Assembly (NCBI GenBank): GCA_015069365.1
Contig: SVIT01000001.1
Coordinates: 1-64,000 of the forward strand
Source: Clostridiales bacterium
GTDB taxonomy: Bacteria > Bacillota > Clostridia > Christensenellales > Borkfalkiaceae
Reading direction: 5' to 3'
DNA: 64,000 nt
The notes under the pieces: generated by a model
Told to the model about the DNA's origin: nothing
What the model saw: the letters and a program-made list of their open reading frames with translations, nothing else
The model's database searches: none
Program-made: the position numbers and the translations under genes
Part shown: piece after piece, positions 51,263 to 64,000 of the stretch
Layout: each line of letters begins with the position of its first letter
Position numbering within the stretch: position 1 is the first letter of the stretch

Positions 51263-52690
51263 TTAAGATTCCAACGGAAGCATGTCCTCGGCAGAGGAAT
51301 CTAAAGGCGCGGATTCGGTTTCTGCAGACTCGGTTTGCGTGGGTTCAATGACCGCAGGTTCTGCGACGGCTTTTTGCTTTACGCAAGCCTTTAATAGGAA
51401 GAACATACCCGTACCGATCGCCACGAACGTGATATAGATAATCGGTTGTATAACGGGATAGATCGTAACTGAGCCGATGGAAAGCTTGATATTAAACAGC
51501 GATCCCGCGAAAGGTACAAGCTCTGCCGCCGTCTCTTGGTCGAACATAAACAGATAGTTGCAATAGAACCAACGGTTGTCCGTTGCCGCATAGATCGAGT
51601 TGAACGTCGTCCCCAACACGAAAATAATCAAGTAGTATCCCGTGAAGTAGAGGATAAAGCTCTTATAATCTTTCATGGTAATCGGCTCGAACACGCCCAA
51701 AATCAAGGCGAGCAGAGGAACAACGATAACGTTGTTATGTTCTACGATATAATGGATATTTGCCTTATTGAGAATACCATTATTTTCAACGTCCATAACG
51801 AGTGCCGCGATAATACCGCCCGCCACGTTGACGAGGATATTAAAGAGGAACATTCTTCTGTTCTTCGTCGCGATGGAAATAAAGATGAGATACGCAGCGA
51901 TGTTGCAAAGCTGGAGAGGCATTCTCTTACAGGTCAATTCCCCCAAAGAGGAGAACAGTTGATTAAATTGCAAAAGCAACGAAAGAGAAAGGATCAATAC
52001 CAGTATGTATCTATCTTCCATCGGACGCTTTTTGAAGATCAAGGTGAACACCGTAACTTCCGCGATCATAAACAAAAGCCAGAGGATATGCATCGGCTTC
52101 ATAAACGAGAAGATGACGTTCGTATGCGTGTCGAATATTCCCTCAAGCGCGTACACAGGCATGATCGAAAAGATACAAAGCACGAGAATAATCGCAAACG
52201 GGAAGATATCCTTTTTCGCGAATTTCCATACGTTGATATCGCGGAGGAATATAAACGCGATCGTCGCGAGCTGCACTAAAACGGTACCGAAGAATAAAAA
52301 TCCTCTAAATACGCCGTTGCGCAAGGTGTTGGGAATAAAAGCAGGGAAGAAGCGAATATCGCAGATACCCGTGCCTTCAGGCGACGTGAAATACGGCAAC
52401 ATTTCCCCAAACAAACACGCGAAAATAATTGTAACGGGCAGGCAGAAATAAATCGCAATTTTCTTAAACGTCGGCCGATCAAAATAGACTGCGATGGGCA
52501 AAATGATGAAAGAAACGTAGTTAAGCCAACGCATAATCATTTGGAACGGGCTGAGTCTATGATCAATATTTCTGATCCCGATTACAAAGCCGTCTGGCAT
52601 CAAAATACCGATAAACGTGAGTACCATGTACGCGACGAGCAGGCATTTTGATAGTTTTAGTTGTTTTTCTTTTTCCATAATAAATTGCAT
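51263..52690 (-). CDS. YwaF-like integral membrane protein
   Basis: About 10 TM segments; 'LGELTCKRMPLQLCNIAAYLIFISIATKNRRMFLFN'. Confidence 0.65.
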   Translation of the reverse strand: MQFIMEKEKQLKLSKCLLVAYMVLTFIGILMPDGFVIGIRNIDHRLSPFQMIMRWLNYVSFIILPIAVYFDRPTFKKIAIYFCLPVTIIFACLFGEMLPYFTSPEGTGICDIRFFPAFIPNTLRNGVFRGFLFFGTVLVQLATIAFIFLRDINVWKFAKKDIFPFAIILVLCIFSIMPVYALEGIFDTHTNVIFSFMKPMHILWLLFMIAEVTVFTLIFKKRPMEDRYILVLILSLSLLLQFNQLFSSLGELTCKRMPLQLCNIAAYLIFISIATKNRRMFLFNILVNVAGGIIAALVMDVENNGILNKANIHYIVEHNNVIVVPLLALILGVFEPITMKDYKSFILYFTGYYLIIFVLGTTFNSIYAATDNRWFYCNYLFMFDQETAAELVPFAGSLFNIKLSIGSVTIYPVIQPIIYITFVAIGTGMFFLLKACVKQKAVAEPAVIEPTQTESAETESAPLDSSAEDMLPLES

Positions 52691-52907
52691 AAAATACCCC
52701 TTTTTTTCGGTACACCCCATACCGAAATGAAACACTCCAAAACCAATTATAGCACAAACAAAAAAAGATATCAACTATTTTTAAGATATTTTTTTAATGC
52801 TGCAAGACATGGGCGATTTTTGTATAATTCCAACTGCGTTTCAAGGGGGAGTTAGAGATTAATTTGTCGTTATTTAGCAGAATTTGCAGGAAATATAAAA
52901 AAATGTA

Positions 52908-52936: not shown

Positions 52937-53048
52937 AATGTTATCATGCGTTCTATATATATTGATGGACGGGGTTGCGCTCGAAAAGATAAAGATAGGC
53001 GAATGATAACGTCTAAAAACATATAAGGTTACAGCGGAGGGAACAAAC

Positions 53049-53627
53049 ATGGGGTTGTTTAGCAAAAAGCCAAAAAAGACACAGGAAGAAATCCGAAGAG
53101 AAACGAAAGAGAAAGCAGTGAAAACGTCGACTGATTTGTCGATGCAGATCATGACCTTGACCAAGAAGAAAGATATCTTTCAAAGCAAGATGATCGAGGC
53201 AAGAAGAAAGGGTTTGAAAGAGCAGGAAGCGCAGGCAAGAGGTTTGTTAAAGCAGACCATGGCTTCGATCAAAAGAGTGCAAGGCATGCTGATGACTCTC
53301 GAACTGGCTATGGAATCCAGAGATTTGGCGGAATTGAACGTAAGATGTCTGGACGCGATCGGTACTTTGTCGCAGGATATTATCGGGTCCAGCCAACAGA
53401 CAAGCGCAGGCAAGGCGAAGAAAATCAACGAAACCTATCTTCGTGCGAGATACGAATCCGCAAAGCAGGCGGAAACGATCGACGGAATGTTGGCTGTCGG
53501 CGAATATGCGTCGGTTGCAGCGCAGGACGATAGCTTGTATTCGGAATTTGACGATGAGATCGACGGTATGATTGAAGACGCAGACAGAGCAGACCGTATG
53601 TTCCCCATGGATAGACAAAGATTTTAA
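53049..53627 (+). CDS. Stand-alone Snf7/ESCRT-III-like helical protein
   Basis: MGLFSKKPKKTQEEIRRETKEKA...LTKKKDIFQSKMIEARRKGLKEQEAQARGLLKQTMASIKRVQGMLMTLELAMESRDL...acidic C-term FDDEIDGMIEDADRAD; basic N-terminal hairpin and acidic C-terminus as in CHMP proteins; RBS GGAGGGA. Confidence 0.65.
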   Translation: MGLFSKKPKKTQEEIRRETKEKAVKTSTDLSMQIMTLTKKKDIFQSKMIEARRKGLKEQEAQARGLLKQTMASIKRVQGMLMTLELAMESRDLAELNVRCLDAIGTLSQDIIGSSQQTSAGKAKKINETYLRARYESAKQAETIDGMLAVGEYASVAAQDDSLYSEFDDEIDGMIEDADRADRMFPMDRQRF

Positions 53628-53641
53628 GGTTGGGCGTGCAG

Positions 53642-55330
53642 ATGAAGAGCTATAAAGAATTTAAAAAAGACTTACAGAGAAAGAAAGAAAAAGAAGAGAC
53701 CATGCGCGAGTTGAAAGGGGCTATGAAGACTCTTGAAAACAAGCGTGAAAATTATAAAAAAGAAGCGCAGGCAGCCATGAAGAACGGGAACACTTCCCGC
53801 ATGAACGTCATGATCGCGCTCATGAAACAGGCTATGTTCAACCTGAAATTGACGCAGGACATGGAGGCAAACTTCATTCTCGCCAACGATATGTTGGAAA
53901 TGCAGAGCATGAACAAGCGTTTTGTAAAATCGTTGGATTCGGTTATGAAAAACGTATACAAAACTTGCAAAGCGATCCACGTTCAGTCCAGCGAAAAGAA
54001 TTTCACGAAAGCGTTATATTTGCAGACGCAGACTTCCAGCGAGCTGAAAGAAGTACTGGGCGCAAACAACATTATGTTTGCCGACAGTGTAAATACCCTT
54101 TCGGATATCAGTGACGAAGAAGTGAAAGAACTGTTAGGAGAAGGCATTGCGCTTGAAGAAGAAAAAGAGGATGCAGAGCTTGACGAGCTTGAACAGGCGT
54201 TCAAGGGACTTATGAACAAACAGAGCCCCTCCAAAGCGGCTGTCATGGAAGGCGGTTCGCCCAAGGCGAAAGCACCCGCTCCCGCGCCTGCTCCTAAGGC
54301 GGAGGCACCCAAGGCGCCCGCGCCCAAAGCGGAAGAGCCGAAAGCTCCCACGCCTGCTCCTGCTCCCGCACCTGCACCGAAAGCGGAAGCGCCTCAAAAT
54401 GCGGCGAACGGGGAAGATGCGAAGCAGAAGAGACCTGAAGACGAGTTGTTGGAAGGTGAAGGCGGCGAAGGCGGTTTTATCTGGGATAACATTCCCACCA
54501 TCGGTTTTGACGATATCGCTGGGTTGGAAGAGGTAAAAGAGGTCGTAAGAGTAAAAGTGCTTTTGCCTTTGAAGAACCCTGAAGCGTTTGCAGGATATGA
54601 GAAAAAGAGCGGCGGCGGTTTGTGCTTATACGGCCCTCCGGGCACGGGTAAGACGATGATTGCGGCGGCGATCGCGAAAGAGATCGGCGCAAAATTCTGT
54701 TCCGTTAAACCCTCCGATTTGTTACAGCAAGGGGCGGGGAACACGGAAAAGGCGGTTAGAACGTTGTTCAGCCAGGCGAGAAAATTCCCTTGCGCGGTTA
54801 TATATTTCGACGAAATGGATTCCATTTCTCCCAAGTCCACCCGTTCGCAGTACGCAAAGCAGTTGCGTTCGGAATTCTTGGCACAGTTGCAGGGGGTTGA
54901 AAGCTACGGCAAAGACAAGGGCAATATTTTGTTTTTGATCTGCGCAACGAATAAGCCTTGGGATATTGACAGCGCATTCTTGCGTCCTGGCAGATTCGGT
55001 ACGAAGGTGTACGTTGGTTTGCCCGACGCGCCCGCAAGAGAATATATGGTCAACAAGCGTATTGAAAAAATCGCGAAGAAAGGTATTGTAGACATTCAGG
55101 ACGATTTGGATATCGCCAACGTCGTTGAAAAGACGAACGGCTTTAACGGTTCGGACATCACCAACCTCTTAGACCGTATCGAAGAGCTCTCCATCATCAG
55201 AGGGATCGAATCGGGTGAAAAATACATCGGTAACGCGGATTTTGAAAACGCCCTGAACGATATTCATTCCTCTGTGCAGACGGAAGATTTGATCAAGCTC
55301 AAAGAATGGAGAAACGAAAACGATAAATAA
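53642..55330 (+). CDS. Snf7/CHMP-like domain fused via Ala/Pro-rich linker to Vps4/katanin-type AAA ATPase
   Basis: N-term KKEAQAAMKNGNTSRMNVMIALMKQAMFNLKLTQDMEANF...KSLDSVMKNV...DELEQAFKGLMNK; linker [76 protein letters not shown]. Confidence 0.75.
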   Translation: MKSYKEFKKDLQRKKEKEETMRELKGAMKTLENKRENYKKEAQAAMKNGNTSRMNVMIALMKQAMFNLKLTQDMEANFILANDMLEMQSMNKRFVKSLDSVMKNVYKTCKAIHVQSSEKNFTKALYLQTQTSSELKEVLGANNIMFADSVNTLSDISDEEVKELLGEGIALEEEKEDAELDELEQAFKGLMNKQSPSKAAVMEGGSPKAKAPAPAPAPKAEAPKAPAPKAEEPKAPTPAPAPAPAPKAEAPQNAANGEDAKQKRPEDELLEGEGGEGGFIWDNIPTIGFDDIAGLEEVKEVVRVKVLLPLKNPEAFAGYEKKSGGGLCLYGPPGTGKTMIAAAIAKEIGAKFCSVKPSDLLQQGAGNTEKAVRTLFSQARKFPCAVIYFDEMDSISPKSTRSQYAKQLRSEFLAQLQGVESYGKDKGNILFLICATNKPWDIDSAFLRPGRFGTKVYVGLPDAPAREYMVNKRIEKIAKKGIVDIQDDLDIANVVEKTNGFNGSDITNLLDRIEELSIIRGIESGEKYIGNADFENALNDIHSSVQTEDLIKLKEWRNENDK

Positions 55331-55341
55331 GGAGAGAAGCG

Positions 55342-56469
55342 ATGGGATTTTCTATTGCTTACATAAAAGAATTATACGAAAAAGCGTATAAGGAAGGTGT
55401 TAAAGCGAGCGAAACAAGACATTTTGCCGTGGCGAAAAAGAAATTGTACGAAGCGGCTGTTTACGCTAAAAAGTTAGCGCAAATGGATCCTGCGAACAGC
55501 GATATGTACGAAAGACGTGCGGAAAAGCTGAAAGGGATCTCCGACAGTATTGACGTAGAGGCTTTAGAACCTGCTCCTTATACGGCGCAGACTCCGCAGA
55601 CCTCTTCGGGATATTCGCGTGGGGGAAATCAGGCTGGGCAACAGCTTGACAGCCAAAGCGGTGCAGGGGAGGATATGAGTTCGTTCTACACCTTCTTTGA
55701 AGCGTCCGAGCTGACGGACGGTTTTGAAAGTGTTATCGGTCTGGAAGAGGCGAAAGAGGCGGTGACGGAATACGTTATCAATCCGATCAAATATCCCGAC
55801 GCGTACAATTATAACTTTATCAGTAGCAAATGTATTTTGCTCGAGGGGCCTCCTGGAACGGGTAAAACGACGTTTGCGAAAGCGGTTGCAAAGGAGATTG
55901 AACAGCCTTTCGCGCTCGTGAACGTTGCCTCGCTTGTCAACTGTTACGTAGGCGAAACGGGTAAGACGATCGACAAGGTGTTTAACAGCTTGCGCGATTA
56001 CGTAGAGAGAAACAACTGCGGTCTTACGGTCTTCTTTGACGAATTTGACGAAATTGCAAAAAGCCGCGGCGGCGACGACAAAGCCTCGCAGACGGCTGTA
56101 CCTGCATTGCTTAGAAACTTGGACGGCGTAAAAGAGAATAAGAATTTCTTGATTTTGGCGAACACCAACTGCCGCGATTCTTTGGACGCAGGTATTTTGA
56201 GCAGATTTAGAAGAAAAATCTTCATTCCTTTGCCCGACGCGAATATGCGCAAACAGTTCTTCACGAACAAACTCAAGCAGCTGGAACCCGAATATTTCGA
56301 GCAACTGGATATGGAACAGCTAGCAGAGGCGTCGGAAGGGTTAAGCGGACGTACAATTACACAGATTTGCGACGATTATCTGCACTTTATCGGCGGCGTT
56401 AAGGCAGGGCTTAGATCGTGTGACGATTTCAACGCTGCGTTAATCAAAATTTTAATTAACAATCAATAA
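55342..56469 (+). CDS. Vps4-like AAA ATPase with N-terminal MIT-like helical bundle
   Basis: N-term [147 protein letters not shown]. Confidence 0.82.
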
Positions 56470-56489: not shown

Positions 56490-57623
56490 ATGAAAAAATG
56501 CAATAGTTGTAACGGAATACTGGAAGATGGCGACGTCTTTTGCCGTTTTTGCGGAAAGAAGGCGGATAACGCCGACGGCTATCCCGAAGAGAGCAAGCCG
56601 ACGGAGAATATCACTTCGCTGTTCTTGAAATATGCAGGTTACATGGACGCAAACGTTTTGTATAAGGTAGCGCTTGCGAAAGAGAAAGGACTAATCAAGA
56701 GTGAGTTCCCTGGCGAAGCGGAAGAAATCTACAAGGTATTGTCGTTTAAGGGACATTTGGACAGTATGTATCAGTACAGCTGTCTGTTGCTCAACAAGAC
56801 CGAACCTGAAGTGGAGTTGGCGTATAAGTGGCTGAAAATCGCGGCAGGCAAGGGACACGTGCCCAGTATCAATATGTTGCAGATATACAACTGGAGAGAC
56901 GTCGGGGTGAAGAGTCACGTTGCGCCCCAAGCGCCGCAAGGCACGCAGACCCCTCCTCCTCCCATCGTTACGGACGAAACGCCCATTCAGCCGATACAAA
57001 TCCCTGCAAGCGGGGATTCGTTTGCAGAGAAAGTCAACAACGTATTGCCTGCGATCGTCATGATCACCTCGACCAAGAGAAGGGGCAGACAGTGCGAGAT
57101 TTCTTGCGGTTCTGGCTTCGTGATCGAAAACGGCTACGTCATCACGAACGCACACGTTATCGGGAACAATCCCGACTGTATCGAGGCGCGTTTCGAACCG
57201 TCCATCGACAGACAGTCCCATTTGCTGTACCCAGTCGCAATCGAAGAGGATTACGACCTTGCGGTGTTAATGTTTGCCGATGCGCATACGGATAGATTCT
57301 TGAATATGAAATGCGTAGGGCTGAATACCAACCCTGTGGCATACGGTCAGGAAGTATTCACAATCGGCAATCCCTTGGGGATCGGGCTCAGCGTCAGCAA
57401 GGGGATCGTTTCCTGTCCCGACAGAGCCTCGAATTATCCCAAGCGTGTAAAGAGCGTTATCCAAACGGATATCACCATCAATCACGGTAACTCTGGCGGG
57501 GCGTTGTTCGACGCGAACAATCAGGTTATCGGCGTTGCAACCTTTGTACCAAGCAAGAGCGAAGGCGGGATCGGTATGTGTATCCCCGCTGTATATATTA
57601 AAAGCATTATAAATAAATTTTAA
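56490..57623 (+). CDS. Zinc-ribbon / Sel1-like / trypsin-like (HtrA-type) serine protease, no visible signal peptide or TM
   Basis: CNSCNG...CRFCGKK; 'ELAYKWLKIAAGKGHVPSINML'; SGFVIENGYVITNAHVI, EDYDLAVLMF, TDITINHGNSGGALFD. Confidence 0.85.
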   Translation: MKKCNSCNGILEDGDVFCRFCGKKADNADGYPEESKPTENITSLFLKYAGYMDANVLYKVALAKEKGLIKSEFPGEAEEIYKVLSFKGHLDSMYQYSCLLLNKTEPEVELAYKWLKIAAGKGHVPSINMLQIYNWRDVGVKSHVAPQAPQGTQTPPPPIVTDETPIQPIQIPASGDSFAEKVNNVLPAIVMITSTKRRGRQCEISCGSGFVIENGYVITNAHVIGNNPDCIEARFEPSIDRQSHLLYPVAIEEDYDLAVLMFADAHTDRFLNMKCVGLNTNPVAYGQEVFTIGNPLGIGLSVSKGIVSCPDRASNYPKRVKSVIQTDITINHGNSGGALFDANNQVIGVATFVPSKSEGGIGMCIPAVYIKSIINKF

Positions 57624-57635
57624 GGAGTAACTGAT

Positions 57636-58529
57636 ATGGCTACGAAAGTAAAGAATGTAACAATAAGAGTAAATAACGAATACGTTATTTGGAACGAAGA
57701 CATTGAGAACATCGTAAGAGACGCAACGTTGATCGTTGAACCCGGCTGTGTGGGCGTTTATATTGTAGACGGTATGCTTAAGAGTATCAACCCTGCGGGT
57801 AAATGGTTGCTTAAATCGAAAGAAGAGGATAAGCAGAAAAGCTCTTTGCAGTTGATCGGTGTAAACACGGACAAGACGTTTGAGATTCGTTGCGGCGCAG
57901 GGAATATTCCTTATAAAGATTTTGAAATCAACGTAGAAACGTTGGTAGGCGCGCACGGTTCGTGCAAGATCAAGATTGCTCAGCCTTGGCTTTTGTACAC
58001 CACGATGGGTAAGGCAAACGTTACGGCGGAAGAGATTGATCAGTATATGAAACAGAAGCTCAGCGAAATTATGACGTCGACGTTGGCGGAAGTATTGCAG
58101 AGCTACGATTACGGCAACGTTGCAACGCAGCAGTCGGAGATCGCGGATAAGCTGGCACAGAAATGCGCGGTTAAGTTGAACGATATCGGTGTTCAGGCAA
58201 CGGATTTCACGCTTGCAGGTATCAAATTCACCGAAGAATATCAGGCGCAGCGTAAAGAATTTTTTGAGGCGCAGAACCGCAAAAAGGCTGAAAAAGCGGC
58301 AAGAAGAGAAAAGGAAAGAGAACAGCAGGCAGAGATTGATAACTTGATCGCGATTGCAAACGCAACCCAGCAGATGAATATCGACAATGGTATGGCGAAT
58401 CAGGCAAACGCACCTGCAGCACCCGTTCAAAACGATTTTAATCAGCCTGTTAAATATTGCAGCAGATGCGGTATGAAGATGGCGAGCAACGCAGTATTCT
58501 GCCCTGGCTGCGGATATAAGGTTAAATAA
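57636..58529 (+). CDS. SPFH/Band7-like protein with C-terminal zinc ribbon (YdjI-like architecture)
   Basis: 'VEPGCVGVYIVDGMLKSINPAGKW...' SPFH-type N-term, charged helix EEYQAQRKEFFEAQNRKKAEKAARREKEREQQ, C-term YCSRCGMKMASNAVFCPGCGYKVK. Confidence 0.75.
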   Translation: MATKVKNVTIRVNNEYVIWNEDIENIVRDATLIVEPGCVGVYIVDGMLKSINPAGKWLLKSKEEDKQKSSLQLIGVNTDKTFEIRCGAGNIPYKDFEINVETLVGAHGSCKIKIAQPWLLYTTMGKANVTAEEIDQYMKQKLSEIMTSTLAEVLQSYDYGNVATQQSEIADKLAQKCAVKLNDIGVQATDFTLAGIKFTEEYQAQRKEFFEAQNRKKAEKAARREKEREQQAEIDNLIAIANATQQMNIDNGMANQANAPAAPVQNDFNQPVKYCSRCGMKMASNAVFCPGCGYKVK

Positions 58530-58553: not shown

Positions 58554-60083
58554 ATGGCTTTTTTTGGATTATTCGGTAATAAGGAAAAGAAAAATACGGA
58601 AGCGGCAAGCTCGGGTAAGAAAAATATTTTGAGCTTGATTCAAAACATTAAATTGAACTGTAGAAATGCGGAAGCGGTTGCCGCTTTAAACAAAATTGAA
58701 GTGGAAATTCAAAGCCAAGGCGAAACCTCTGACGTAAACGCGATTGCGTTGGGCGGGGAAATTCAGCGTTTACTCGCAGAAGCAAATACGTACATTTTAA
58801 AACAGCAATATCCTACGGCGATTGCAAAGCTGAATACGGCTTTTAACAAGGCGGTTGACAGACATCAATATTGCAATTTCGGCGGTACGATGACGAAAGC
58901 GGACAAGGCTGCTGCAGACAAAGCGAAGAAGATGATGGATAAGCTCGCAAGCCAAGCGGTTAAGACGAGAGCGGAAGAATTGCAGGAACAGATCGACCAG
59001 ACGACGGCAGAGTTGGCGGCGTTGCAGACGGAATTCGAGCAGTTGAAGAAGCTTCACGAACAGAAACCCTCCGACGCGTCCATTACTTCGCGCGCAACGG
59101 CTGTACGTGTTAAAATTCAGACGACGCAGACCTTGCTCACCAACCTTAACGTTGAAATGCAGAAAGAAACCGTTGATACTTCGATTGTGGAAATCGCGGC
59201 TGCAAACGCACAGATGGTGGAAGGTAGAACGCATGACGAAGCGGAAATGGCGGTTAAGAGAGCGAACGTTATGGCGCAAAACGAACAGATCAAACAGACC
59301 CAGACACAGGTCAACGAAGACCTTGGCTTGTTGGGTTCGGCTGTGGGCGCGATGGATCCTTTCGCAACCGACTTGAACGCAGGCGTAGCGGCTTTCGATC
59401 CTTTTGCGACCGATTTGAATGCAGGCGCGGCTATGGGTATGGGTACGCAGGCTGGTCAAGCGACGCAGGCTCAATACGGCGGTTTCCAGGCAAGCGAAGT
59501 GGGTACTGCGCAAATGGCTGCTGAAATCAAAAAGACGATGCGCGCGATGGAACAGAGTATTGAAATGTACGAAGATAAGATCGAAGAAGCGAATGAAGAC
59601 TTCGAAGATTACAACCTTCAGTTGAGACGTTTGTTGGAAAAGAGAAAGACGGCTTCTCCTGCAGATTGCTTGGTGCTTGATGGGCAAATCGACCAAGTAC
59701 AGTCCCGTCGTAACGGCGTTACCAACAAGATTATGAGATACAGACAAGCGAAAGCGGAACTTAGCGATAAGCTGTCCTTGATGGATAAACTTGCAACACA
59801 GCAGGATTTGACCTCCACCAATGCTCAGATCGAAAAATTGACGAACGGAAAGTTTGCGGATTTCGCAGGCTTGTCCATGTTCCTTAATGATTCCGTTAAG
59901 GAAAGCAACCAGAAGCTTGAAGAGATCGGTATTGCACACAATATCGCAGAAAGCGAAGAGATTATGATGGGTTCTGCATCAGGCGCTTCGGCGGCTCTTT
60001 CGGATGCAGGTCTTGTTAAGGATGAACATAAGTACGACGCGTTGATGGAAGAATTGACGCCTACGCCCAGAACGCTTGGCTAA
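58554..60083 (+). CDS. Long coiled-coil protein, possible Snf7/PspA-related (C-terminal half)
   Basis: MAFFGLFGNKEKKN start, two long helical blocks separated by MDPFATDLNAGVAAFDPFATDLNAG and Gly/Gln-rich linker; C-term KYDALMEELTP. Confidence 0.55.
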   Translation: MAFFGLFGNKEKKNTEAASSGKKNILSLIQNIKLNCRNAEAVAALNKIEVEIQSQGETSDVNAIALGGEIQRLLAEANTYILKQQYPTAIAKLNTAFNKAVDRHQYCNFGGTMTKADKAAADKAKKMMDKLASQAVKTRAEELQEQIDQTTAELAALQTEFEQLKKLHEQKPSDASITSRATAVRVKIQTTQTLLTNLNVEMQKETVDTSIVEIAAANAQMVEGRTHDEAEMAVKRANVMAQNEQIKQTQTQVNEDLGLLGSAVGAMDPFATDLNAGVAAFDPFATDLNAGAAMGMGTQAGQATQAQYGGFQASEVGTAQMAAEIKKTMRAMEQSIEMYEDKIEEANEDFEDYNLQLRRLLEKRKTASPADCLVLDGQIDQVQSRRNGVTNKIMRYRQAKAELSDKLSLMDKLATQQDLTSTNAQIEKLTNGKFADFAGLSMFLNDSVKESNQKLEEIGIAHNIAESEEIMMGSASGASAALSDAGLVKDEHKYDALMEELTPTPRTLG

Positions 60084-60097
60084 TCGAGGAAAAGCAA

Positions 60098-61633
60098 ATG
60101 AATATTCAATACGTTCTACTTGCGGCGAAAACGATGGCGGATAAGGCGGAGAAAGAGGCGTCCTACGGGATGGCTTCCGCTGCGCAATCGTATAAGACGG
60201 CTGCAAAAAAATATAGAGAGGCTGCGACCTTGGATCCTTCTAAAAAGGACGAATATATCGCTTTGGCTGAGTCGTTAGAGGCGAAAGCGGAAGGCGCGGT
60301 CAACAGACCTGCGCAACAGCAAAATGCGGGCGGCGGCAACGCTCCCGCAGGACCTGGAAAACCCGTTCAGAAAGCGGCAACTGCGACGCAAACTGCTCCG
60401 AATCCTCAAACGGCAGGGGATAAACCGCCCGTAACGGTTGAGGAAGCCTTGGCAAAACTGAATGCTTTGACTGGGTTGACGGGGGTTAAAGAAACGGTGC
60501 AGGCATGGGTATCGCAGATTAGAGTCAACCAAATGCGTGCAAGCATGGGGCTGCCTGTTCCCGAGGGGTTCTCGTATCACTTGGTATTCACTGGGAATCC
60601 CGGTACCGGTAAAACGACGGTTGCAAACCTCATGGCGGATATTTATCGCGCGTTGGGGATTTTGAAGGGCGGTCAGCTGGTTACCACGTCCAGAAGCGAT
60701 CTCGTTGCTGGTTACGAGGGGCAGACGGGTCAAAAAACGCGTGAAAGAGTAGAAGAAGCGTTGGACGGCGTACTGTTTGTCGACGAGGTTTACGCGCTTT
60801 GCGGAAACGGACGCGACAGCGGTAAAGATCCCTTCGGTCAAGAGGCTATCGACGAGCTGCTGATCGCTATGGAAAACCATAGAGACAGACTGGTCGTTAT
60901 TGTTGCAGGATACACCGATTTGATGGAAAAATTCATGGACTCCAACCCTGGTTTGAAGTCGAGAATGAGCAACGTTGTCGAATTTGACGATTACAATGAC
61001 GCGGAAATGCTCACCATCTTTGAAAATCAGTGTAAGAAGCACAAGCTCGTTTTGACGAACGGCGCGCGCAGTATGCTCAAGGCGTACTTTAAGCATTTGT
61101 ACGACACCAGAGATAAAAACTTCGGTAACGCGAGAACGGTGCGTAACACCTTCCAGCAGGTCTTCATGGGTCAATCCAAACGCTTGTACAAACTTAGCGA
61201 AGTGCAGGATATTCAAGATTACGAACTGATGACAACTTTGACGGAATCGGACGTTGCGTTTGCGACTTCGCAGGATAACAACGGCATTTCTCCCGAATAC
61301 AAAGAGATCCAAAACAATATCACGGAAGCGGGTATTCAGGCGGATCTTGAGCAGGGAGAATACGGCAAAGCGGCGATTGCGCTTTGCTCCAGATTCGAGG
61401 GCTTGTTTAAGCACGTCTACAAACTGAACGGCGAATTGTACGAAATGATTAACGAATTCAGAAGCAAACAAAGAGAATTCAGTATCAATCTTACGAACAA
61501 TAACTATGACTGCCTCTACCGTATCCGCACGTACAGAAACAATTTCGTACACGCAAATCTTGCGGGACAAAGCATTTCTCCTGCAGACATCAAAGAGGGG
61601 CTCCGCATTCTCAAGGTGCTCGAAAAAGAGTAA
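60098..61633 (+). CDS. MIT-like N-terminus + CbxX/CfxQ-type AAA ATPase + C-terminal HEPN-like domain
   Basis: KTMADKAEKEASYGMASAAQSYKTAAKKYREAATLDPSKKDEYIALAESLEAKAEG; GNPGTGKTTVANLMADIYRALGIL, GVLFVDEVYAL; C-term YRIRTYRNNFVHANLAGQ containing an R-x4-H motif. Confidence 0.75.
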   Translation: MNIQYVLLAAKTMADKAEKEASYGMASAAQSYKTAAKKYREAATLDPSKKDEYIALAESLEAKAEGAVNRPAQQQNAGGGNAPAGPGKPVQKAATATQTAPNPQTAGDKPPVTVEEALAKLNALTGLTGVKETVQAWVSQIRVNQMRASMGLPVPEGFSYHLVFTGNPGTGKTTVANLMADIYRALGILKGGQLVTTSRSDLVAGYEGQTGQKTRERVEEALDGVLFVDEVYALCGNGRDSGKDPFGQEAIDELLIAMENHRDRLVVIVAGYTDLMEKFMDSNPGLKSRMSNVVEFDDYNDAEMLTIFENQCKKHKLVLTNGARSMLKAYFKHLYDTRDKNFGNARTVRNTFQQVFMGQSKRLYKLSEVQDIQDYELMTTLTESDVAFATSQDNNGISPEYKEIQNNITEAGIQADLEQGEYGKAAIALCSRFEGLFKHVYKLNGELYEMINEFRSKQREFSINLTNNNYDCLYRIRTYRNNFVHANLAGQSISPADIKEGLRILKVLEKE

Positions 61634-61933: not shown

Positions 61934-62033
61934 GTATATAATATACCCAAATAAACAATGTAGTGGTTCTCATTAAAAAGCGAATGAGAACGCTATCTTT
62001 TTAGGAACGGGTAATCACGGCGAGACGGTGCAG

Positions 62034-62954
62034 ATGGAAATTATAAAAGATTTTTACAAACGAAGACAACCGCATAAATTTTTTTATGCCAAAGAAATGA
62101 AAGTCCGTTCACGGGCTTACGGGGAAGAGGTTCACCGTGAGTTCACCGATTGGCAATCGTACTTTTTTGAAAAGCGCAAGGCATACGGCGACAGATTCGT
62201 TTTATCCGAGTTAGAGGATCTTTTCGGGTACGAGCTACAAAGTGAAATGGGCTTGGACAAAGCATTATCGCCGTTGTGCTTAGAGGGGACACGGTTCGAG
62301 CTTCGTCCCGACGGTTATATTTCCGTCAGAGGCAGACGTAGCGGTCTGCACGTGGGGAAAGAGATCAAGGCGGGCGCGCTGTTCCATATCCCTGAAGAAA
62401 GGGAGACGGTTAGCGGTCTGGCGGTCATCGGCAAACCGGACGGCTCGGATGAGATGAAACTCAGCGTATATTATTGGCGAAAGGGGGACTTTGAGAAACA
62501 GAGCTTTGACTCTGTTCCGCTTGCGCCGACGCTGGACGCGAGTAGTCATCTGTTCTGTTTAGGAAGACATATATTTTTGATACATAATTCGGTGTTGGAT
62601 TATTATTACATCAACACGGAGGAGAACCGATTAGAAAGGGTTGCAATCGGGGAAGACGGAGACAACGAAACGTTTGATTGGTGCAAGTTCGTTTCCCCCT
62701 GTCTTGTGACGAACGGCAAAGGGGACGTCTTTTGGATATCCGATCAAGACGTGTACACTTTCCCGATCGGTTATCCGAGAAAGCTGGCAACCATCAAAAA
62801 CAACAAAATTGAAAAGCCCTTGCATTTATTCGGTACGGAAGACGGCGTAGTCATCTACAGAAAACAGCGGGGCACAGACACGGTAGTGTGCGCCAAATAT
62901 AAAAAGGCGGGCTCCGGTCGGTACTTGGCTCAGTTGACGAGCACCGACGAATAA
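62034..62954 (+). CDS. Hypothetical beta-rich (propeller-like) protein
   Basis: Recurrent strand motifs (SHLFCLGRHIFLIHNSVLDYYYINTEENRLERVAIGEDG; GDVFWISDQDVYTFPIGYPRKLATI; EDGVVIYRKQRGTDTVVCAKY). Confidence 0.55.
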   Translation: MEIIKDFYKRRQPHKFFYAKEMKVRSRAYGEEVHREFTDWQSYFFEKRKAYGDRFVLSELEDLFGYELQSEMGLDKALSPLCLEGTRFELRPDGYISVRGRRSGLHVGKEIKAGALFHIPEERETVSGLAVIGKPDGSDEMKLSVYYWRKGDFEKQSFDSVPLAPTLDASSHLFCLGRHIFLIHNSVLDYYYINTEENRLERVAIGEDGDNETFDWCKFVSPCLVTNGKGDVFWISDQDVYTFPIGYPRKLATIKNNKIEKPLHLFGTEDGVVIYRKQRGTDTVVCAKYKKAGSGRYLAQLTSTDE

Positions 62955-62998: not shown

Positions 62999-64000
62999 AT
63001 GATTGATAAAAATGACGTCAAAATGCCTGTGCAAAAGGAGAACATGAACAATCTTTTGGCAGACAATTCCAGAAGAATGCAAGTTGAAAAACTGCTCGAG
63101 TTGGTAAACGATGCGGAAAACAAGCAAGAATTGCGTTTGAAATCCGATTATTATTCCCGTTTCCATTGGTTTGGGAACAATGCGGGGAGAACGGCAAGCA
63201 GTTACTTTTCTTATCAGGAAGAAGCCGTTTACGACTTCATTTTCAACTTGAACAAGAGCGGTATCTTGTCCGACCAGGTAGGTATGGGTAAGACAATCGA
63301 AGCAGGCATGATCATCAGTGAGCTTGCCAGCCGTAACGAGCTGCGTTCCCTTTTGATTATCGTTCCCAATGAAATCATGGCGCAAAAATGGGAATACGAG
63401 TTAGAGGAAAAATTCGGCGTTAAGAAGCACGTTATCGAGGCGGTAGAGGGGGACCAGTCCAACCAAGTCTATCCCGAAGTAAAAGCATTGAAAAATTACG
63501 ACGATTTCTGCCGTTGTATTTACGAGTGTATCGCTCACGAAAACTTCGGCGATTTGAACGAGGAAAACTTCGAACATACCTATACTCCGAAGAACGGCGC
63601 GGAAGAATCTTTGGAAACGGTCATCAAGAGATTTGTCGAAGAGGATATCAAAAAAGCCGTTGACATGATCAACGACGGTTTGTCCACGGAATACGACGTC
63701 ACCGTATCTTTCAACGGTCAGCAGTTCTCCATCGTTGGGACAAAATTCAAGCGTAGTTACGTATACGACCAAAAGGGAGCGATTGCGGAGTTCTTGAACG
63801 GCAGACAGAATCAGCGCCAGCTGGACAGATACGTCAACGCGTCGAGATTTAAGACGAAATACAAAGAATTGATTACGGGGGAACTCAACGCGCTGTATAC
63901 GCTCGTGGGGGATTATTTCACGACCATTCCTGAAACGATTTCTACGATTTCCAGCAGTATGACCGAAAAGTATCCCATTTTGGTTATTCCCATTGCATAT
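62999..64000 (+). CDS. SNF2-family helicase, 5' part (truncated by window end; absent from ORF track)
   Basis: Manual translation MIDKNDVKMPVQKENMNNLL...SYFSYQEEAVYDFIFNLNKSGILSDQVGMGKTIEAGMIISELASRNELRSLLIIVPNEIMAQKWEYELEEKFGV. Confidence 0.85.
   Translation, partial: MIDKNDVKMPVQKENMNNLLADNSRRMQVEKLLELVNDAENKQELRLKSDYYSRFHWFGNNAGRTASSYFSYQEEAVYDFIFNLNKSGILSDQVGMGKTIEAGMIISELASRNELRSLLIIVPNEIMAQKWEYELEEKFGVKKHVIEAVEGDQSNQVYPEVKALKNYDDFCRCIYECIAHENFGDLNEENFEHTYTPKNGAEESLETVIKRFVEEDIKKAVDMINDGLSTEYDVTVSFNGQQFSIVGTKFKRSYVYDQKGAIAEFLNGRQNQRQLDRYVNASRFKTKYKELITGELNALYTLVGDYFTTIPETISTISSSMTEKYPILVIPIAY

Follow-up and report, generated by a model that had tools for sequence, protein, structure and literature searches.

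The window analysed here, a stretch of 64,000 nucleotides from a Clostridiales bacterium of the family Borkfalkiaceae (contig SVIT01000001.1, positions 1 to 64,000; the genome comprises 1.35 Mb and is 74% complete), contains an operon that begins with a gene for a stand-alone protein resembling ESCRT-III (endosomal sorting complex required for transport III). This gene, designated A, occupies positions 53049-53627 of the forward strand, on which all genes described below lie unless stated otherwise. It starts with ATG, preceded at a distance of 6 nt by GGAGGGA (53036-53042, forward strand), read from the sequence as a ribosome-binding site, and encodes 192 residues; profile, model, and charge data were used for its assignment. 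As the initial annotation had stated, A heads the operon: it is the first of seven genes on one strand, which are separated by gaps of 11-24 bp and end at 61633, where a gap of 394 bp follows. Family matches divide the product of the next gene, B (53642-55330), into an ESCRT-III-like domain, a Pro/Ala-rich linker, and a classical AAA ATPase with a Vps4_C helix. The first of these parts, about residues 1-183 (53642-54190), was recognized as a second ESCRT-III-like paralogue by hhalign comparison with A and by shuffled controls. The second gene downstream of A, C (55342-56469), encodes an MIT-like domain joined to an AAA ATPase (375 residues in total). The MIT-like domain (55342-55587) is predicted to consist of three helices, at residues 5-24, 28-48, and 50-69, and was assigned from PDB fold matches. 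The Walker A and Walker B motifs are intact in B, at residues 331 and 387, as well as in C, and Vps4_C matches B with 21.4 bits at a cut-off of 21.3.

A similarity between A and the N terminus of B had been noticed by eye. Plain BLASTP of window A against window B gave no match, and the relationship became visible only via relatives and profiles. With A as query, phmmer matched the N terminus of the adjoining AAA gene in the relatives G035, G262, G185, and G093 with E values of 1.4e-8 to 5.8e-5. Profile-profile comparison of A with the B N terminus reached 99.3% over 178 columns (E = 2.8e-20) and, with more sequences, 100% (E = 5.9e-41), in the same register as the alignment made by eye. A profile of the window clade of A scored 137 against the B N terminus, compared with 35 for the best of 60 heptad-block-shuffled controls, which places the similarity above chance. 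Two other helical families of these operons gave no match (4.7% for K, a 200-residue protein found in relatives, and 0.7% for F, a later gene of the window operon). A is a full-length paralogue of the B N terminus. In a tree, the B N termini formed one group together with one unfused relative, and the window-type A proteins formed another, so that the duplication predates this lineage; the stems of both groups are long, and their precise position is uncertain. Of the duplication and fusion that the initial annotation had suggested, the paralogy therefore stood, and a recent duplication and fusion of A itself did not: within the limits set by the long branches, the fused copy falls in an old clade of paralogues, some of which are unfused.

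The product of A has the basic N-terminal half and the acidic tail described previously, with net charges of +12 over residues 1-80 and -9 over residues 151-192, and no transmembrane segment was found in it (best 19-mer hydropathy, 0.7). Its AlphaFold2 model (mean pLDDT 78.9) contains five helices at residues 12-53, 57-114, 120-150, 154-159, and 166-184. The proposed helical hairpin agrees with this model, in which helices 1 and 2 are long; their antiparallel packing is suggested by the fold match given below, not by inspection of the coordinates. Both checks that the initial annotation had named as possible refutations, the HMM comparison with the B N terminus and the structure model, came out in its favour. 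The likeness of the N terminus to the start of CHMP4, also put forward earlier, carries no weight.

To place A among known families, 67 A homologues were compared by hhalign with five solved proteins, CHMP1B, CHMP2A, CHMP3, Snf7, and Shrub. The A family matched the CHMP/Snf7 profile at 88.9% over 128 columns (E = 2.4e-6) with a score of 46.0, and 100 heptad-block-shuffled controls scored at most 21.5. The window-clade profile alone reached 53%. The query sequences of CHMP2A, Snf7, PspA, and the MIT and AAA domains of VPS4B agree with PDB chains where these cover them, which for Escherichia coli PspA extends to residue 145; the exception is one residue of CHMP2A, where the PDB sequence was followed. 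Pfam Snf7 (PF03357) matched 9 of 23 homologues below its cut-off (E up to 1; best E = 3.3e-4). Snf7 gave no match over the cut-off in any genome, and because a control Sulfolobus genome likewise stayed under it, this cut-off is a curation threshold and not a defining trait. When the window A model was searched with Foldseek against 350,542 PDB chains, CdvB of S. islandicus appeared at ranks 1, 2, and 4, with a probability of 1.00 and of 0.99 for the semi-open form, and CdvB2 at ranks 7, 8, and 10. Together, the profile and fold matches make membership of A in the ESCRT-III superfamily (Snf7/CHMP/CdvB) well supported, and the earlier description of A as a CHMP-like protein is borne out by the profile match and by the weak Snf7 matches of its homologues.

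An explanation by coincidence, in which the proteins are generically helical and charged and their likeness to one another and to CHMP is purely compositional, could appeal to the weak matches that long helices draw, as BAR and TRFH domains do in the Foldseek list of A, and to the weak matches of Snf7 in control bacteria. The shuffled controls, which keep the heptad composition, scored far lower than A, however, and other helical proteins of the same operons, the unrelated families K and F, reached only 1.4-1.6% against CHMP/Snf7. In addition, A and the MIT-like domain, modelled separately, both point to the archaeal ESCRT pair. The controls thus largely refute this explanation, which we regard as scarcely credible.

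A second alternative, that A is a divergent PspA/Vipp1 and the cassette an ordinary phage-shock operon (pspA-ydjGHI) to which an AAA ATPase was added, was evaluated with the same data. PspA belongs to the same superfamily, pspA of Bacillus subtilis is followed by genes for membrane proteins and an SPFH protein (PMC8581546), and the host family gave no PspA match over the cut-off in 121 genomes, with none at all in the genome of the window. In hhalign, however, the A family matched PspA/Vipp1, represented by two PspA-type sequences, at 1.1% and inside the shuffle range, versus 88.9% for CHMP/Snf7. PspA_IM30 (PF04012) was not among the 25 families listed for 23 homologues, and no PspA or Vipp1 structure was found in the Foldseek top 50. 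A PspA/Vipp1 origin of A is therefore quite improbable.

The partner ATPases were analysed in the same manner. The MIT-like domain of C was modelled at a pLDDT of 88.3, and its top four PDB fold matches were all Vps4 MIT domains, with TM-scores up to 0.82. In relatives, the gene after A usually encodes an N-terminal domain followed by an AAA domain with a Vps4_C helix; a longer variant carries an EccA-type AAA domain between the two. Pfam MIT matched the N-terminal region of these AAA proteins below its cut-off (best E = 2.0e-4, in G138), and 8 of the 11 subthreshold MIT matches in 28 genomes lie, by position, at the N terminus of a cassette-type AAA protein. The CdvC model NF041006 aligned end to end, MIT part included, with the MIT-AAA protein of a relative (214 bits). 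Vps4_C (PF09336) was found over its cut-off in 21 of the 28 genomes, that of the window included.

Conservation of the cassette was assessed with 74 loci fetched from relatives, some of them duplicates. The usual gene order is SPFH, a small protein, K, A, optional zinc-ribbon proteins, MIT-AAA, and an HtrA-like protease. In the 36 loci flanked by at least 5 kb on either side, the genes near A encode an AAA ATPase (32 loci), MIT (31), SPFH (31), K (22), and the protease (17). The window represents a variant without K, in which the A-AAA fusion and the MIT-AAA protein are accompanied by four further genes. D (56490-57623) encodes an HtrA/trypsin-like serine protease with an intact triad (H221, D256, S335) and an N-terminal zinc-ribbon match below the Pfam cut-off. 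E (57636-58529) was identified by family match as an SPFH/Band-7 protein with a C-terminal zinc ribbon. F (58554-60083), with 509 residues and probably a coiled coil as judged by eye, is a component of window-type cassettes. G (60098-61633) combines a helical N terminus, MIT-like by eye only, with an EccA/CbbX-type AAA ATPase; a DUF4145 match (E = 9.9e-5) was observed at its C terminus.

Of the genomes sampled, 28 of 301 in the family and 28 of 248 in the order carried a homologue of A. At class level 3 of 342 genomes contained one, all three in the same order, and at phylum level the window's own genome was alone among 399. No relative of A was found in viral and plasmid collections. The relatives are assemblies from metagenomes, several of them from animal guts; their labels read Clostridia or Clostridiales, and in one case Bacilli. 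The Bacilli-labelled assembly (L066) contains relatives of the window-type A and of the B N terminus, and may reflect a transfer or a mislabelled bin. K (A2 family, for example L050:10499-11107) is highly conserved, starts with FKSKYDKL, and lies between the small gene and A. It was considered as a second ESCRT-III protein and dropped, as it showed no profile relation to A and no convincing Pfam match. Separately, a second locus of G181 (L117; L055:18558-19166) encodes a 202-residue protein that matches Pfam Snf7 with an E value of 0.0089 and adjoins a Vps4-like AAA gene and a protease match.

The explanation we prefer for these observations, with a probability of about 0.66, is an ESCRT-III/Vps4-type membrane-remodelling machine. 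It builds on four computed results, namely the paralogy of A and the B N terminus, the superfamily similarity, the MIT-like fold, and the conserved operon; membrane binding, polymerization, AAA docking, and a biological trigger would be its further elements. The basic N-terminal half of A would most likely let it assemble on the inner face of the cytoplasmic membrane, and the neighbouring AAA ATPases would remodel or dismantle the A polymer. In most relatives, the N-terminal MIT domain of the AAA protein would dock on the C-terminal tail of A. In window-type loci, the AAA ATPase may also act through the ESCRT-III-like domain fused to it in B, with C as a separate MIT-AAA protein. The SPFH and zinc-ribbon membrane proteins could bring the machine to the membrane, in the way that PspA of B. 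subtilis is positioned by YdjI, YdjG, and YdjH, and the HtrA-like protease could act on the clients of the machine.

The same neighbours allow a different reading in terms of membrane-protein quality control, in which A and the N terminus of B are helical adaptors that form no filaments, take clients from the SPFH domain, and hand them to the AAA ATPases and the HtrA-like protease, much as HflKC-FtsH would work with one more adaptor. In its favour, genes for SPFH, AAA, and serine protease lie side by side, the triad of D is intact, and an A-like domain fused to an AAA ATPase, as in B, would suit an adaptor. Quality control does not predict the CHMP/Snf7 similarity, the CdvB fold match, or the Vps4-type MIT domain, however, and of the 36 well-flanked loci, 19 gave no protease match near A, whereas only 4 of the 36 lack the AAA gene. 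We consider this reading unlikely.

Several results weigh against the ESCRT-III/Vps4-type machine. No curated family cut-off was reached by A, and window A itself had no Snf7 match; searches of Pfam, NCBIfam, and PDB sequences with window A gave nothing of weight, and PDB sequence searches found no relative of A used alone or as a profile. Snf7 matches at E values up to 0.1 were also obtained in 6 of 14 control genomes. The Foldseek result for A is weak (E = 0.02), with a low global TM-score of 0.37, and for the MIT-like domain the fold E values (0.12-0.24) and the match of its sequence profiles to MIT are weak as well. Vps4_C also matched euryarchaeal controls such as M. jannaschii, presumably on CDC48, and was therefore dropped as a clean marker of Vps4. 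The AAA domains proved equidistant, with median BLAST bits of 159 to yeast Vps4 and 162.5 to p97 D2. A phmmer ranking of CDC48 above Vps4 was discarded because it was inflated by the two ATPase domains of CDC48; the single-domain comparison is a tie. As the AAA domain is equally close to Vps4 and to CDC48 D2, it is not called Vps4 here, and the MIT-like domain of C, which was absent from the initial annotation, is the stronger link to Vps4.

The C-terminal tail of A belongs to the same balance. The strict MIM1 motif with its canonical arginine was rejected for the A family, as it occurs in none of the 67 homologues. A relaxed MIM1-like end, (D/E)xxhxx(R/K/E)hxxLK, was found in 31 of the 67 homologues versus 1 of 1266 other proteins, although the pattern was relaxed after the sequences had been seen and the homologues are not independent. 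Window-clade A proteins lack even this relaxed motif. They share a (D/E)(D/E)EID stretch, often with a terminal [RK]x[RK][FY] (8 of 67 homologues). This tail is consistent with altered docking in loci whose AAA ATPase carries a fused ESCRT-III domain; it represents one clade and at most one event.

The purpose of the machine would be envelope repair or immunity. The trigger would probably be envelope damage; phage attack is plausible in view of the TIR neighbours. Among 40 zinc-ribbon neighbour proteins of relatives, L050:8147-9883 and L031:6177-7898 being two of them, which had been picked for the zinc ribbon before TIR was counted, TIR_2 was present in 31, often with TPR repeats, and LRR_5 in 10. 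These neighbours led us to consider an anti-phage or conflict system, in which sensing or signalling falls to the zinc-ribbon TIR protein, frequently one with TPR or LRR repeats, and ESCRT-III/AAA is a membrane-acting effector or protector. Being about what the cassette is for, this proposal does not conflict with the preferred mechanism. BrxL (BREX Lon-like) lies close after the cassette in the three checked loci L056, L098, and L106, and an SNF2 helicase gene related to DrmD/BrxH/DpdE follows it in the window and in L116. In NCBIfam, C was matched best by IteA, an anti-phage ATPase, with 139.8 bits and thus under the cut-off of 510, and the distribution of the cassette is patchy. On the other hand, the window operon yielded no TIR gene, PADLOC offered models for none of A, E, F, and H and matched the AAA and protease genes to broad families only, and the viral and plasmid collections were negative, as described above. 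The neighbour associations do not show a defence function, and a TIR domain is in itself no proof of NADase activity. Overall, an anti-phage role falls somewhat short of an even chance, and a tie to immunity is possible. The more specific version, a bacterial ESCRT-III/MIT-AAA immune module in which the zinc-ribbon TIR protein senses or signals infection, the AAA-driven filament acts on the membrane, and the window lineage has fused one ESCRT-III subunit to its AAA ATPase, is rather doubtful and is offered tentatively.

The genes around the operon were examined as well. H (62028-62954) encodes a 308-residue protein of unknown family that accompanies the SNF2 gene after the cassette in L116, and I (62999-64000) is the SNF2 helicase gene itself (1276 residues), which extends beyond the window end. 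After the cassette of the window and of L059, H and the 1276-residue helicase are followed by an 897-residue protein; H, SNF2, and part of the 897-residue protein recur in L116. A 566-residue open reading frame and a very long one follow. In L097, L101, and L109, proteins of similar size stand at the place of BrxL, and genes with TerD domains lie upstream of the cassette in G035 (L039:1341-5323). Before the operon of the window, on the reverse strand and divergent from it, 51263-52774 encodes a bacterial protein with a TMEM164-family match (E = 3.3e-16).

The cassette was compared with known systems. In the CdvB/CdvC pair of the Sulfolobales an ESCRT-III-like protein is likewise encoded beside an MIT-AAA ATPase; CdvB is the best fold match of A, an archaeal Vps4 MIT domain that of the MIT-like domain, and the CdvC model spans the full MIT-AAA protein of a relative. 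The present cassette differs in its bacterial host, in SPFH, zinc-ribbon TIR, and HtrA-like partners, in the fused ESCRT-III-AAA form, in an AAA domain tied between Vps4 and CDC48, and in weak fold E values, and no CdvA was identified in it. With eukaryotic ESCRT-III (CHMP1B, CHMP2A, CHMP3, Snf7) and Vps4 it shares the profile similarity, the basic N-terminal half and acidic tail, and the MIM1-like end of many A relatives; the canonical MIM1 arginine is absent, Vps4 is not clearly the nearest AAA ATPase, and no ESCRT-I or ESCRT-II genes were noticed here. In B. subtilis, the SPFH protein YdjI and the membrane proteins YdjG and YdjH recruit PspA (PMC8581546), so that pspA-ydjGHI also combines an ESCRT-III-superfamily protein with membrane proteins and SPFH. 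By analogy, both systems may have a membrane-recruitment logic in common, although A is not PspA-like by profile and MIT-AAA, a protease, a second 200-residue protein, and TIR proteins are added here. Archaeal Meth_adaptin loci unite ESCRT, SPFH, and zinc-ribbon proteins in one locus as well (PMC10936438); their adaptin-appendage and wHTH components were not seen here, where no dedicated search for them was made. The IetAS anti-phage system likewise pairs an AAA ATPase of the same broad family as C with a serine protease gene; it is set apart by the distance of C from the IteA cut-off and, here, by the trypsin/HtrA-like type of the protease, the MIT-like domain, and the ESCRT-III-like partners.

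A 2024 survey stated that a complete pairing of ESCRT-III with an MIT-bearing ATPase is lacking in bacteria. Bacterial genes of the PspA/Snf7 clades have been reported to adjoin AAA ATPase genes in some bacteria, and ATP-dependent membrane remodelling was proposed for them; in the passages covered of the survey that reported this (PMC11237479), no bacterial Snf7-clade gene is paired with an MIT-AAA ATPase, and neither TIR or HtrA partners nor a fusion of ESCRT-III to an AAA ATPase are described. In the literature covered, with subscription journals and most preprints outside the search, no paper describing the present cassette was found. A bacterial cassette of a Snf7-side ESCRT-III-like protein and an MIT-AAA ATPase would bear on the age of this pairing and on its transfer between domains. 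With an ESCRT-III-AAA fusion that occurs naturally, the action of the ATPase on the filament could be probed in a simple way, and the TIR genes nearby prompt one to ask whether bacteria use ESCRT-type machines in immunity.
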